From a virus, in the IMG/VR virus record IMGVR_UViG_3300044611_001939, positions 1 to 20,361 of that record: a DNA stretch of 20,361 bases; one strand, given 5' to 3'. The notes beneath the pieces are model-generated. The model was given only the letters and a program-made list of their open reading frames with translations. It was not told the DNA's origin and did not search any database. A program made the position numbers and the translations under genes. Shown piece by piece: positions 1,993 to 6,950 of the stretch. How positions within the stretch are numbered: position 1 is the first letter of the stretch; each line of letters opens with the position of its first letter.

Positions 1993-2853
1993 ATGTATTC
2001 ATCGAACAGTTTGCACTTTACAAGAAATAGTCAACTATTAGAAAAACTAGCACAAGCTACTCAGGGCAATCAGTATGTAGATATTAGTGGCAAGCCTTCT
2101 AAAACACCTGTTCTATATGATCACGGTGGAAGAAAATACTATTATATGTCAGACGGTAGAAGAATTGATCAACTATCAGGTACAGTAATAGATACAGATC
2201 AAAATGTAGCTCAAAAAGCAAAAGATTATGCCGCATCGACAGCTCAAGCAGCATCACAACAGCAAGCTCAAAAACCTGGAGTAAATCCAGCCGCAAAATT
2301 TATAGAAGTGAACGAAACAAGAAAAAAGTTTAATCTTCCTGAGTATAGATCTGTACAAGAGATGATTCAAAAAGAAAAAGATTTGAATGAAGACTATCAG
2401 GCAGCAATGCAAAATTATATAGAAAATTATGGATGGACAGCTGATCAATTTTACAAGCATTATCCAACTGTTTATGATTTTGCAGTTGATTTGCAAAAAC
2501 CAGATCTTTCATCTGGTGGTAGAAAAGATTTTAGTGATGAAAGAATATTGAAATCTATTCTTACTTTTAATGAAGATGAGTTAAACAAAATACCAACACA
2601 AGAAGCATTTAGAGTTTTAGATGCATTTATTGGTAGACTTCCAAATATTAATGTAAAAAATGAAACATTTGATCAGTATGAAAGACGCTTAAGAATAGAT
2701 CTACTCAAGTATCGTATGATAAATCCAAAAATGATGGAACACATCATAAAGCAAAAGATGGTGGATGCTCAACAGAGACTAGGAAGACAAAATCCAGCCA
2801 TAGCAGCAGCATATCAAGAAAGAGCTGCTCAAAGAAGTTACCGAAATAGATAA
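1993..2853 (+). CDS. Unrecognised phage protein, 286 aa, possibly structural
   Basis: I do not recognise this protein. Residues 1-30 contain a basic/hydrophobic segment ending in LEKLAQATQG. Residues 40-65 have an aromatic patch (GGRKYYYMSDGRR) and 75-100 are Ala/Gln-rich and probably disordered. The remainder is helical and charged, ending in an Arg-rich tail (AAYQERAAQRSYRNR). The KLAQ string resembles KKIAQ in the convergent neighbour at 2921-3835, which also has an aromatic YYGPYAAPDGKKRYF patch. That hints at two proteins handled alike, for instance by a capsid maturation protease, but this is inference. The ATG at 1993 has GAGG about 10 bp upstream. It is the only rightward gene in this block and ends at a hairpin terminator shared with the convergent gene. 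Confidence 0.8.
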   Translation: MYSSNSLHFTRNSQLLEKLAQATQGNQYVDISGKPSKTPVLYDHGGRKYYYMSDGRRIDQLSGTVIDTDQNVAQKAKDYAASTAQAASQQQAQKPGVNPAAKFIEVNETRKKFNLPEYRSVQEMIQKEKDLNEDYQAAMQNYIENYGWTADQFYKHYPTVYDFAVDLQKPDLSSGGRKDFSDERILKSILTFNEDELNKIPTQEAFRVLDAFIGRLPNINVKNETFDQYERRLRIDLLKYRMINPKMMEHIIKQKMVDAQQRLGRQNPAIAAAYQERAAQRSYRNR

Positions 2854-2920: not shown

Positions 2921-3835
2921 TTATCTATCTTCAAATTCACCCGTATAAGAATATCTCTTAGCACTCTTGTCAAATACAACTTTAAAGTATCTTTTCTTGC
3001 CGTCTGGAGCAGCATAAGGTCCGTAGTAACCCTCTATATTTGCTTGCTTGCCATCTGGGAAGAAATAATTAGGCTGACGAACATTAGATGCTGAAGAGCT
3101 AGCAGGTGGTAACTGAGTGTTACCGGGAGTTGCTGGAGTAGAGACACTAGCTTGTCCACCGCCGCCAGCTTGTCCACCGCCGCCAGCTTGAGATGGAGGC
3201 GGCTTAGAAGCTACGTCATCTTTGCCACCTCCAGTTGAACCTGGAGTTGCTCCGGGTGCGGGTGCAGGTGCGGGCTTTTTACCTTCTGGTCCAGCTCCAA
3301 GTGGAACGTTGGGGTCATACGGGCTTCTTGCTTCTTGCTGTGGGCCTTGCGCCTTGGGACTTCCTCCGCCGCCTTGAGAAGCTGCTGCTCCAGCTCCAGC
3401 TGCACCGCCAGCCTGTATCTTTGAGTTAATTCTACTAGCAAGTTTATCTAAAAATGCAAGGCGAGACTCAAATCCGCCTCTCATTCCAATTTCTTTTATA
3501 CCTGCGGCTTCTTGTTGAGATATATCCCAAAGACCAATAAAATTCTTAGCAGCATCTTCACGATTAGGACCTTTTGTAATTCTGTCTTTCCAGTAATTAA
3601 TTACTTGAAGTTTTTCTGTAGGATCTAAGCTTTCAAAATATCCACTACCAGCTCCAGCAACAGGAAGTCTATCAAAACGTCCTGCTTGCATAAAAGCAAG
3701 AGCTTTTTGCTTGTTCATTTGCTGCATAGATTCTTGTTGCATTTCTGCCAACTCAGATTGTTGAGCAATTTTCTTAAAATTACCAGAAGACTTTAGTAAA
3801 ACTTTATTTGTAATTTTTTGTTTTCTGTTATTCAT
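2921..3835 (-). CDS. Low-complexity Gly/Pro/Ala-rich phage protein
   Basis: This 304-residue protein has a basic N-terminus with FKKIAQQSELAEMQQES, then a helical region (residues about 30-130) with LDPTEKLQVINYWKDRI and a Gln-rich coil. A long disordered linker (about 140-245) consists of GAGAAASQGGGG, PAPAPAPGATPG and two copies of QAGGGG. The C-terminal 50 residues look folded and aromatic (YFFPDGKQANIEGYYGPY, then KRYFKVVFDKSAKRYSYTG). I do not recognise the family. It is the last gene of the leftward operon from 6950, 16 bp after the previous stop, with AAGGA about 9 bp before its ATG, and it ends at the 2871-2899 terminator. The linker-plus-terminal-domain layout would suit a virion or internal capsid protein (inference). 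Confidence 0.82.
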   Translation of the reverse strand: MNNRKQKITNKVLLKSSGNFKKIAQQSELAEMQQESMQQMNKQKALAFMQAGRFDRLPVAGAGSGYFESLDPTEKLQVINYWKDRITKGPNREDAAKNFIGLWDISQQEAAGIKEIGMRGGFESRLAFLDKLASRINSKIQAGGAAGAGAAASQGGGGSPKAQGPQQEARSPYDPNVPLGAGPEGKKPAPAPAPGATPGSTGGGKDDVASKPPPSQAGGGGQAGGGGQASVSTPATPGNTQLPPASSSASNVRQPNYFFPDGKQANIEGYYGPYAAPDGKKRYFKVVFDKSAKRYSYTGEFEDR

Positions 3836-3851
3836 GTGAATTATGTCCTTA

Positions 3852-4589
3852 TCAAATTTCGAATCTTTGCTTTAAAGCATCTGCTGTTCCTGTACCAGAT
3901 GGCTTAGCTGCTGCTGCTGCTGCTGCTGGCGCTGACTGCTGTGGAGGAGCAGATGGGGTTGGTGCAGGAGGAGGTTGTGTGGAAGTTGGAGCTTGAGGAA
4001 GTTGCTGAGTATTTGTTTTACCAGTGAGTGCCTCATAATTAATAGGTTCCTTTCCTGTTGCAATCAGCATATCATTCATAAGTTCATCTTCTTCTAAAAG
4101 CTTCTTGCCAGCTTCAAAAGCAGGACCAATTCCTCTTTCAGTAAGTCTTTGAGATATTGTTGCAATTCTTTCACTTAATTTAGCATCAATATTTTTAAGA
4201 TCATTATCTAGACGATCAGATATGCCGCCAAGTCTTGATTTCACTTCTTGTTGGAATCTTGCTTGTGCATCTTGAAGAGCTTTTAGCATTTCTGGAGTTT
4301 CTGAACCACCAGACCACCAGTCTTGAGCAGACTGTAGCAAGTTTGATTTACTGAATATAGATGCTAAAGCTCCAACTGCACCGCCAGTTAATCCAGCTCT
4401 CAGAGCAGATCCGAATAGAGCGCTACCTGCTCTTCCAAGTGCTGGACCAACAGCCCTTCCAAGATTATAGGCTAACTGAGCTTCTTTATTGAGTGTGAAT
4501 GTTCCATCAGCTTCAGCAGTAACGTATCCTTTTCTGATGCCTGAAGCAAGCCACTGTGTTTGAGATATTTTTATCATTTCTTTTTTCAT
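3852..4589 (-). CDS. WL-motif protein with glycine-rich and coiled-coil regions
   Basis: This 245-residue protein shares an N-terminal motif with the next two genes upstream: MIKISQTQWLASGIRKGYV (residues 5-23). A Gly/Ala-rich hydrophobic region (about 44-83: GRAVGPALGRAGSALFGSAL, then GLTGGAVGALASIF) could insert into or cross a membrane, or pack as an amphipathic helix. A coiled coil follows (about 100-155: QARFQQEVKSRLGGISDRLD), then a Pro/Ala-rich disordered tail with eight consecutive alanines. The last ten residues, ADALKQRFEI, echo IAEALRNRY near the C-terminus of the next protein upstream. The start at 4589 has GAGG 5 bp upstream. The gene lies 9 bp after its upstream partner, so the two are co-transcribed. 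Function unknown; a minor virion or ejected protein is one possibility. Confidence 0.82.
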   Translation of the reverse strand: MKKEMIKISQTQWLASGIRKGYVTAEADGTFTLNKEAQLAYNLGRAVGPALGRAGSALFGSALRAGLTGGAVGALASIFSKSNLLQSAQDWWSGGSETPEMLKALQDAQARFQQEVKSRLGGISDRLDNDLKNIDAKLSERIATISQRLTERGIGPAFEAGKKLLEEDELMNDMLIATGKEPINYEALTGKTNTQQLPQAPTSTQPPPAPTPSAPPQQSAPAAAAAAAKPSGTGTADALKQRFEI

Positions 4590-4598
4590 GTTAACCTC

Positions 4599-5828
4599 TT
4601 ATTTTGGTAAATAATCTGGAGACTGTGGAGCAGAGGCTCCTGGTGCATATCTATTTCTTAAAGCTTCAGCTATCTGATCTTGCTTTTTCATAGCTGGACC
4701 ACGTGAAGTTGGTTGAGTTTGCTGTATTTGTCTTTGTAAATCAGCAATTGTAGCCATTGTATTTCTCATTTCCTTATCAAGCACTTTACTAATGCCTGCA
4801 ATGGGCTGGAATACCATTTGTAGTGAAGCAATGCCTCGCTGGAAATCTTGAGGTCTGTAATCTTTCATTTGATTATTACCTCTTGCTGCATCAAAAAGAG
4901 CATCAGCGCCATAATATCCGGCTAATCCACCACCAAGTGCTGCAGCACCACGGCCAAGCATTTGTCTACCAGTTAATGCTGGAGTTGGATTTGGAGTTGG
5001 ATTTGGAGTTGGATTTGGAGTTGGATTTGGAGTTGGATTTGGAGTTGGATTTGGAGTTGGATTTGGAGTTGGATTTGGAGTTGGATTTGGAGTTGGAGTT
5101 GGAGTTGGATTTGGAGTTGGATTTGGAGTTGGATTTGGAGTTGGAGTTGGAGTTGGATTTGGAGTTGGATTTGTTCCACCGCCACCGCCAGAAGTGCCAC
5201 CACCAACTAAGCCAACAGCAGCTCCTCCTTTGTATGGAACAGCGCTCTTAAATGCAGCTACAAATTGTGCATTATCCATACCAGCACCCGCTGGATCAGT
5301 AACTCTTAAGTTACCCTTTCCTACCATTCTTTCAAGAAGATTTTTGTCTTGATTATATAACTGAATCATTTGAGAATTTCCAGCAGGGTCTGTTACTTTT
5401 AATAAAGATCTTTCCAAACCTCCAGCACGTGATGCAATAACGTCAAACTTGAAATTTTGTCTTTGATCTGCAGGAATAGCCTGTATCGCAGAAATAGCAC
5501 TGTCTCCTTGGAATCTTAAGGCTCCAAGTTGAGACATTCTACCTTCTCTAAATCTATTCCATCGCTCTCTTAATTTTAATGCAGCTTCTGGATCTTGTGG
5601 ATCTATTTTTGCTTGAGCGCGGCTACCAGAGTCACTTTGCAACCAATCTTCAAAAGACGGAAGTTGAGCAGCAATAGAAGGGTCATACAAAGATCCCTGC
5701 GCTACCTTCACTACGCCATCACCTTCTGTGTAAAATAAGCCTTTATCTAGGCCAACCTGAAGCCACTCACGGGAGCTCATTTTAATCATGGGTTTAGACG
5801 AATTTGCTGTTTTAATAAAACGTGCCAT
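4599..5828 (-). CDS. WL-motif protein with (Asn-Pro-Thr-Pro)n stalk
   Basis: This 409-residue protein has four visible parts. First is a short basic leader ([13 protein letters not shown]), followed by the shared motif [17 protein letters not shown] at residues 14-30. A globular region reaches about residue 205. A Gly-rich hinge then leads into a 64-residue Asn-Pro-Thr-Pro repeat (about 220-283), which would form an extended polyproline-like rod. The C-terminal region (about 284-409) opens with [20 protein letters not shown] and contains [13 protein letters not shown]; both are matched in the paralogue at 5890-6618 (GRGLAAGAGGVGGYLLADWI and DIAGISKSLDKSM). GGAGG lies about 10 bp before the ATG at 5828. 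The repeat is a multiple of three bases throughout, so copy-number change would alter rod length without frameshift. I cannot name the family; a virion component is inferred. Confidence 0.83.
4981..5172. repeat. 12-bp tandem repeat encoding NPTP units
   Basis: Sixteen near-perfect units of GGAGTTGGATTT (plus-strand reading) run without interruption for 192 bp. Two units are the variant GGAGTTGGAGTT, which adds an extra Thr-Pro pair. On the minus strand the array codes for the Asn-Pro-Thr-Pro rod of the 4599-5828 protein. Both the 12-bp and embedded 6-bp periods keep the reading frame. Confidence 0.97.
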
Positions 5829-5889
5829 TATGTAATTTCCTCCAAATGCTATATGTTATTCAAAATAATATAAATGTTTTCCTCTTCAT

Positions 5890-6618
5890 TTACTTATTTT
5901 TTGCTGCGTCTAACTGTCTAATTAAGTCTAAAACGGTTGCGACGCCTTCTGCCATACTCTTGTCAAGACTTTTAGATATTCCAGCTATATCTTTAGCAAT
6001 CATAGTTAATTTAAGTGCGGCTCCTTTAAATTTAGGGATACTGCCTGCTTTTTGTTCTATTACTGATGGAGATGCAACATTAAATCCTTTTCTTTGGTCT
6101 ATAGTTGCATCAGCTATCCAGTCAGCAAGAAGGTATCCTCCAACCCCACCGGCACCAGCAGCAAGACCTCGACCAGCAACTGTTCTTGCCTTACTTGGAC
6201 CCAGAATAGAACGGATTCTACTGGGTCTTGTTGTTGACTGAAGGGCTGCCACCTGTTCTGGAGATATAACTCCACTAGATCTTAAATATTCTCGCAATCT
6301 TGCTGGATCTGCAGCAATTGCGTTTATAACTGCAGGATCAACATTTTGCTGCCTACTTTGCATAATGCGTGAAACAAGCATTTGTGCACCAATGCTGCCA
6401 GCAACAACACCAAAAACAGAATTACCGTCTGATTGCTCCGATTCTCTTGAACGTTCTGGAGACTCATTACGTCTTGACGCTTCACCTGGATTTATAATGC
6501 CTCCAGAAGCAGAAGGAAATGGCATATTTGTAACATCAAAAGCAACTTTGCTTCGTGTTGAAACCCAGTTGTTTTCTATGCCTATTTTTAACCAATCTGC
6601 TGAAGACAGCTTAATCAT
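5890..6618 (-). CDS. WL-motif protein, paralogue of the NPTP-repeat protein
   Basis: This 242-residue protein begins with the shared motif MIKLSSADWLKIGIENNWV. A charged disordered part (about 45-70, RRNESPERSRESEQSDGN) precedes a helical middle with DPAVINAIAADPARLREYL. The C-terminal domain (about 145-242) matches the neighbour at 4599-5828: AGRGLAAGAGGVGGYLLADW and DIAGISKSLDKSM, then VATVLDLIRQL. I place the start at ATG 6618, overlapping the previous gene's TGA as ATGA, because it aligns with the family motif; a TTG at 6657 would add 13 residues and is less likely. The ATGA overlap suggests translational coupling. The Gly-rich GGVGGYLLADWI stretch is weakly hydrophobic. The duplication is clear, but the function of the pair is unknown. 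Confidence 0.83.
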   Translation of the reverse strand: MIKLSSADWLKIGIENNWVSTRSKVAFDVTNMPFPSASGGIINPGEASRRNESPERSRESEQSDGNSVFGVVAGSIGAQMLVSRIMQSRQQNVDPAVINAIAADPARLREYLRSSGVISPEQVAALQSTTRPSRIRSILGPSKARTVAGRGLAAGAGGVGGYLLADWIADATIDQRKGFNVASPSVIEQKAGSIPKFKGAALKLTMIAKDIAGISKSLDKSMAEGVATVLDLIRQLDAAKNK

Positions 6619-6950
6619 GGAAGCTTGGTATTCTTTCTCCAAGCTTTGCAACTCCAATATCTGGCACTTGTTCTGTCTTTAGCCTGATCGCACTTATGTC
6701 TAGCTAAAAAGCTCTTCTGTCTACTTGGCTTATTTCTCTTAATTGACAGTGTTTTTTCACCTTTTGCCTTGGCGCTTGAGCCACCATGACCAAAGTTAAC
6801 CTTCTTTACATTTCCACTCTTTGGATCTTTGACATATACCTTAAATTTCTTTACATCGCCCTTCATGATCTTGCCTAGTGGAACATCTTTACCGCCATGC
6901 TTTGCGGCTTCTTTACGCATTTCGTAGTTATTTGAATTGAATTCGAGCAT
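6615..6950 (-). CDS. Small basic protein of the ARHKCD...YWSCKAW family
   Basis: This 111-residue, strongly basic protein has a short N-terminal leader (to about residue 30), then KKFKVYVKDPKSGNVKKVNF (about 33-52). A C-terminal signature region follows: KRNKPSRQKSFLARHKCD, then SARYWSCKAW. I recall this combination (KVNFG, a basic RxSFxARHxCD segment and YWSCKxW) from conserved proteins of T4-like cyanophages and some large algal viruses, where its role is not established to my knowledge. The two Cys plus His could bind metal. It is the first gene of the leftward operon; AGGAG lies 5 bp before the ATG at 6950. A strong hairpin terminator sits immediately upstream (6962-6998). Basic charge and position beside probable capsid-associated genes suggest nucleic-acid or scaffold contact, but that is inference. 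Confidence 0.85.
   Translation of the reverse strand: MLEFNSNNYEMRKEAAKHGGKDVPLGKIMKGDVKKFKVYVKDPKSGNVKKVNFGHGGSSAKAKGEKTLSIKRNKPSRQKSFLARHKCDQAKDRTSARYWSCKAWRKNTKLP

Follow-up and report, generated by a model that had tools for sequence, protein, structure and literature searches.

Three consecutive genes on the minus strand of the 20,361-base virus record IMG/VR IMGVR_UViG_3300044611_001939, analyzed here at its full length and referred to as the window, encode proteins A, B, and C, each beginning with a similar short head. The question raised by this locus is what such a head does. In a sequence-only reading, it had been taken for a sorting or docking tag, with capsid packaging and cleavage by a maturation protease as examples of its use. 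The three open reading frames (ORFs) and their heads lie where that reading had placed them (Table 1).

Table 1. Proteins A, B, and C and the predicted leaders, heads, and mature parts in the window (a slash marks a predicted cut; PSSM, scoring matrix described in the text)
Feature	Position	Strand	Remarks
Protein A	5890-6618	-	Head MIKLSSADWLKIG; leader of 0 residues from the assigned Met
A, head from the assigned Met to the predicted cut	6541-6618	-	SKVA/FDVT; K-V-A codons at 6541-6549
A, predicted mature part	5890-6540	-	C-terminal Gly-rich segment and GISKxLDKxM as in B
Protein B	4599-5828	-	Head after a 13-residue leader
B, leader with the first K-x-A site	5805-5828	-	PSSM, orthologues
B, head to the predicted cut	5700-5789	-	HMM, PSSM, orthologues
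B, predicted mature part	4599-5699	-	Pro-rich repeat of variable length
Protein C	3852-4589	-	Head MIKISQTQWLASG after a 4-residue leader
C, head to the predicted cut	4479-4589	-	FTLNKEA/QLAY; PSSM, orthologues
C, predicted mature part	3852-4478	-	ORF, orthologues
Predicted leader of the 2921-3835 protein	3764-3835	-	GNFKKIA/QQSE; PSSM
Predicted leader of the 1993-2853 protein	1993-2052	+	QLLEKLA/QATQ; PSSM
Predicted leader of the HVA1-like protein	6906-6950	-	Ends MRKEA/AKH; weaker, by eye; outside the PSSM top list

The best ungapped block of 13 residues in the three heads holds seven identical columns, against at most three in 400 shuffles and at most four in 600 triples drawn at random from the N-termini of four sister contigs, and chance was therefore rejected as the source of the likeness. 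An HMM trained on 20 tags from other phages, with the window and its close relatives left out, gave exactly three matches above 2 bits in the window: A (11.6 bits), B (7.9 bits), and C (4.2 bits, a score that is weak by itself). No curated Pfam or PHROG family was found for A, B, or C outside low-complexity sequence; all matches were weak, and the best ones of B fall in its Pro-rich repeat. Profile searches against the PDB, in which B was one of the queries, gave nothing usable (the B profile matched a lipoprotein at 0.006 and an internalin at 0.009), and the predicted structures of C and A, with mean pLDDT values of 41.5 and 38.5, were too poor for use. By tblastn against isolated phages, A, C, and the protein encoded at 1993-2853 gave chance matches or none.

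The head is conserved in the orthologues of each of the three proteins, down to overall identities of 24% (A), 19% (B), and 26% (C). In close relatives (97% and 56% identity in A), the heads are retained while the middle of B shrinks from 409 to 299 residues. All three heads are also kept in a more distant third phage (L021) and in the contig G006, and those of B and C in the contig G008. Among the orthologues of C, 10 of the 23 invariant columns fall in residues 7-37, a region that closes with K-x-A, and K35 and A37 are invariant in six orthologues. Residues ~210-290 of B form a Pro-Thr-Asn-Pro repeat, the length of which differs strongly even from that in the closest relative. The leaders before the heads had been given as 0, 13, and 4 residues in A, B, and C; the lengths for B and C stand, while that for A is probably not 0. 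At the codon matching the start assigned to A, L021 has Leu, and another relative, L007, has Val or Met by the reference translation (Val in the ORF translation), so that translation in these phages must begin upstream. A TTG at 6657, upstream of the assigned Met, is among the ORF starts of the window, and the comparison suggests that translation of A probably begins upstream of the assigned ATG here as well.

The description of the proteins as otherwise divergent had to be amended for one pair. A and B have a C-terminal Gly-rich segment and GISKxLDKxM in common (phmmer E 6e-11 and 8e-11) and thus are, by their sequences, true paralogues; for C the description holds, since in these searches it is related to the other two through the head alone. 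Could the three simply be tandem duplicates with a conserved first domain, and no transferable tag? The head and C-terminal segment common to A and B are what such an origin would leave, whereas C has nothing but the head in common with them, and a like head stands on unrelated bodies in other phages: the 75 tagged bodies compared by blastp fell into 64 clusters, with enzymes recognized by Pfam among them. Paralogy was therefore rejected as the whole story, and we regard an origin by plain duplication as improbable.

The tag that these bodies carry occurs in two forms. The consensus of the long form is S-x-x-[ED]W-x-x-IG-x-x-x-GW-x-K-x-A, of which the head of A, B, and C is one dialect, and the short form, MNWYKxAQ, is found on many proteins of uncultured phages. 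In a 60-kb sister contig (G003), the head profile matched two further genes, and many N-termini start with MNWYKxAQ, MQWYKFAQ, MNWLKWAK, or the longer SKxEWxxIGxxxGWxKxA. A pattern scan of the IMG/VR DNA found the long form in 41 stretches and the short form in 27, against 0 and 1, respectively, for controls with the codons in reversed order, and both forms were present together in several contigs. When translated, the short-form matches were at an ORF start or at most 16 residues from one; the long-form matches were mostly near an ORF start, and a few of them, such as that in L051, look accidental. A slightly stricter version of the long pattern, run on 84,980 genomes of bacteria and archaea, matched a single stretch, in a planctomycete MAG, and tblastn with a 34-residue query, an insensitive search, found the consensus tag in no isolated phage. 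No description of these tags was found in the literature searched, which included a minority of subscription papers. Judged by these matches, the head of A, B, and C belongs to a wider set of tags on dozens of unrelated proteins of uncultured large aquatic phages.

The tags were counted in 16 contigs, which had been chosen for tags or for relatives of the window genes and do not represent 16 independent genomes (G001 is nearly identical to the window, and G013 and G016 are one lineage); gene starts were taken from our own simple caller. At 10 bits or more, the tag HMM gave 48 matches among the 26,423 ORFs of this set, training tags included, and none among the reversed ORFs. At 7.5 bits or more there were 55 matches, 52 of them in called genes, where the tag lay within the first 40 residues in 42 cases and deeper in 10, in some of these internally or at the C-terminus; one match is at the C-terminus of a 791-residue protein. 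The short tag stood at the start codon of 53 ORFs, a count that includes one GTG ORF of G011 that is likely a false positive, and the reversed motif at that of none. As many as 12 short tags were found in one contig.

Among 20 carriers or candidate carriers, Pfam recognized glucose-6-phosphate dehydrogenase (G6PDH), D-2-hydroxyacid dehydrogenase (in two phages), NUDIX, LysM, a P-loop kinase, a cyclic-phosphate-processing receiver domain, PcfJ, and a poly(A) polymerase head domain; the remaining proteins gave no convincing family. In G011 the tag on G6PDH is the short one, whereas the G6PDH of G013 has a long tag that precedes the called start. The proposal of a sorting or docking tag is strongly supported by this pattern, that is, a modular and mostly N-terminal element on unrelated carriers, with two forms on one enzyme family. 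A link to ADP-ribosyltransferases (as T4 Alt) had been suspected by eye for the proteins at G024 46645, G025 12616, and G021 7657, and was dropped for want of Pfam support, the second giving a weak ThaI match and the other two none.

Some further observations concern single carriers. The P-loop kinase-like protein at 66246-66890 of G011 has no N-terminal tag and has MNWYKSAK near its C-terminus, while a kinase in G021, similar to it by eye, has the tag at its N-terminus. Very small proteins in L048, L068, G011 (48513), and G014 (6043) consist, by eye, of approximately the long tag and a Lys-rich CWxGYxxxGxKxKxGKxVPNC. Along positions 1-74888 of G011, the GC content is ~0.50 in the first 45 kb and drops to 0.35 in the last 15 kb, and the tags are confined to the second part; the contig is mosaic or chimeric.

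The conserved unit might also be the nucleic acid, with the gene start preserved for expression or copied by recombination and the peptide without a function of its own. AAC encodes the Asn of the short tag in 26 of 37 cases, against 12.8 expected, a bias that a purely peptide-level tag leaves unexplained, and the tags are more alike within a genome (0.54) than between genomes (0.45; 0 of 2000 permutations), so local copying may happen. Against this, synonymous codons of the tag vary at the positions tested, the upstream bases inspected look unrelated, and the long tag, which may sit at least 12 residues from the start, is conserved as a peptide. We consider this explanation highly improbable.

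Tags usually end in K-x-A; an exact K-x-A is absent in A of L007, which has KKTVA. The known gp21-type site of phage T4 ends in Glu, (L/I)-x-E, unlike the present heads, which end in Ala. A site matrix (PSSM) derived from 192 scaffold sites of five other phages was used to rank all positions in 22 window proteins, and its first rank was the end of the head of A (SKVA/FD). The end of the head of B ranked fourth and that of C ninth, and the leaders of the 1993-2853 protein, the 2921-3835 protein, and B ranked third, tenth, and eleventh; the remaining five positions down to that rank are deeper inside window proteins. A site scoring at least 7 was present in residues 1-60 of 6 of 16 genes in the window, where the frequency in body windows predicts 1.7, and of 128 genes in all contigs, against 58.6 expected, while the flanking context alone separated N-terminal from body sites weakly (p 0.02). 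Also in the window, an HVA1-like protein (phrog_7595) is encoded at 6615-6950 on the minus strand, with matches in 32 isolate records, mostly of Pelagibacter, Roseobacter, and other marine phages. Most of these matches begin near residue 14-16, and the leader MLEFNSNNYEMRKEA therefore looks like an addition.

K-x-A was also found in the scaffold-like tails fused to the head-maturation proteases of relatives. The window contig itself matched none of the relatives' genes for protease, portal, terminase, or major capsid protein. G008, which encodes a terminase, a portal, a major capsid protein, and, by a weak match, a tape measure, has between its portal and capsid genes (39872-45379) a protein of 1,835 residues, of which residues 97-204 match a head maturation protease (phrog_18299, E 3.6e-11). 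In its scaffold part, Lys is followed by Ala at a spacing of two 38 times, against 13.3 ± 3.5 in shuffles, and all other K-to-A spacings from 1 to 8 are at or below chance. The scaffold part of the G006 fusion (39854-45604) holds 37 such pairs, against 12.1 ± 3.2. After the Ala of K-x-A, Ser is above expectation, and in G006 Gln is as well. Matches to capsid, portal, protease, and terminase were obtained in 8 of the 16 contigs, G006, which keeps A, B, and C, being one of them; the half without a capsid or protease match may be fragments or other phages. The fusions of these eight contigs are 1,835-2,306 residues long, and the K-x-A excess is strong in five (38-46 vs. 13.8-15.7), moderate in two (37 vs. 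21.3 and 22.7), and not distinct in one (G012, 22 vs. 15.9). K-x-A was the top pair at this spacing in five of the eight.

Outside the fusions, K-to-A pairs at spacings 1-6 were counted in the remaining proteins of the 16 contigs: residues 1-60 held 320, 590, 321, 340, 352, and 337, and later residues 1176, 1386, 1145, 1270, 1212, and 1207. Six protease fusions and the genes without a start in the contig were left out of the N-terminal counts, both here and for the scored sites above. The excess of K-x-A is thus at a single spacing and mostly at N-termini. K-x-A-Q also occurs in the N-terminal extensions of the five portals inspected. Two relatives hint at the motif beyond the tagged phages: in Tunturi_5, the gene that follows the annotated maturation protease has 16 K-x-A against 5.6, and LR745208 has an N-terminal K-x-A excess; Rctr197k showed no sign of it, with an N-terminal site in 0 of 26 genes of the stretch analyzed. 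Bacillus phage G, the closest isolate by major capsid protein (49% identity over 96% of the G008 query), has such a site in 5 of 33 genes of a 40.8-kb stretch, against 2.4 expected. The link between the heads and a maturation protease is in this way supported indirectly, in that the predicted K-x-A end of the heads is the motif that fills the protease tail of the relatives.

A tag of this kind, whether cut or uncut, might instead address proteins to another place in the infected cell, such as a phage compartment, a membrane, or a site of replication. Metabolic and nucleotide enzymes among the carriers would suit such a destination, as would the tags found internally or at a C-terminus. It does not agree, however, with the K-x-A that fills the head-maturation protease fusion and recurs in portal N-termini, and we judge it unlikely. 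Rather, we favor, with moderate confidence, the reading of the heads as N-terminal capsid-targeting propeptides that work as in T4, with another sequence and another protease site.

Known systems provide models for such a role. A T4 review (PMC9026906) describes the internal proteins as bearing a capsid targeting sequence (CTS); 10 residues of it are enough, gp21 cleaves it off, and the CTS is suggested as a route for adding varied proteins to the head. As described there, the CTS resembles the present heads in being a short N-terminal peptide common to divergent proteins, with a proposed docking role at the core and removal by the head protease; the present tags differ in sequence, in the predicted cut after K-x-A, in the longer W..IG...GW form, and in having metabolic enzymes as carriers. 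For P1 DarB, the portion seen of PMC9024508 reports that the N-terminal 30 residues suffice for sending a reporter into the capsid; the likeness is one of description only, and, unlike the present tags, that signal has in this portion a single described carrier. In SPN3US and other phiKZ-like giant phages, several head proteins, the portal included, lose N-terminal propeptides to the prohead protease, with multiple sites within one propeptide (available part of PMC10052503). Those propeptides have another cleavage motif and are mostly long, and a head common to dozens of proteins is not described in that part of the article. By analogy with these three cases, the present tags would work like their signals and differ in sequence, predicted site, and range of carriers. 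The tagged phages may also be related to the bS21 phages of PMC9723584.

By analogy with T4 and P1, we infer that the tagged proteins are packaged into the capsid. While the head assembles, the tag would dock its protein to the prohead's inner core or scaffold. The maturation protease, fused to a very large scaffold-like region, would then cut after K-x-A; with tag and scaffold removed, the mature protein would be free within the capsid and could leave with the DNA on ejection. The long (S..xW..IG...GW.K.A) and short (MNWYK.AQ, FIKTA) tags would be alternative addresses of one system. Against the reading as capsid propeptides stand the 10 deeper tags, where a propeptide is harder to picture, and carriers such as G6PDH and the dehydrogenase, which are not usual virion proteins.

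A broader version, which we put forward only tentatively, is a general and transferable address system, with two interchangeable tags, capsid loading, K-x-A trimming, and injection, by which enzymes and dozens of small proteins would act in the host before phage gene expression. If so, G6PDH, D-2-hydroxyacid dehydrogenase, NUDIX, and kinases would be ready-made injected cargo, and the products of some auxiliary metabolic genes of phages would do their work after injection as proteins. Apart from this version, the tags provide a candidate sequence rule for predicting which of the many unknown proteins of these uncultured phages enter the virion and possibly the host, together with a predicted protease specificity, and they are candidate cargo labels for laboratory systems.
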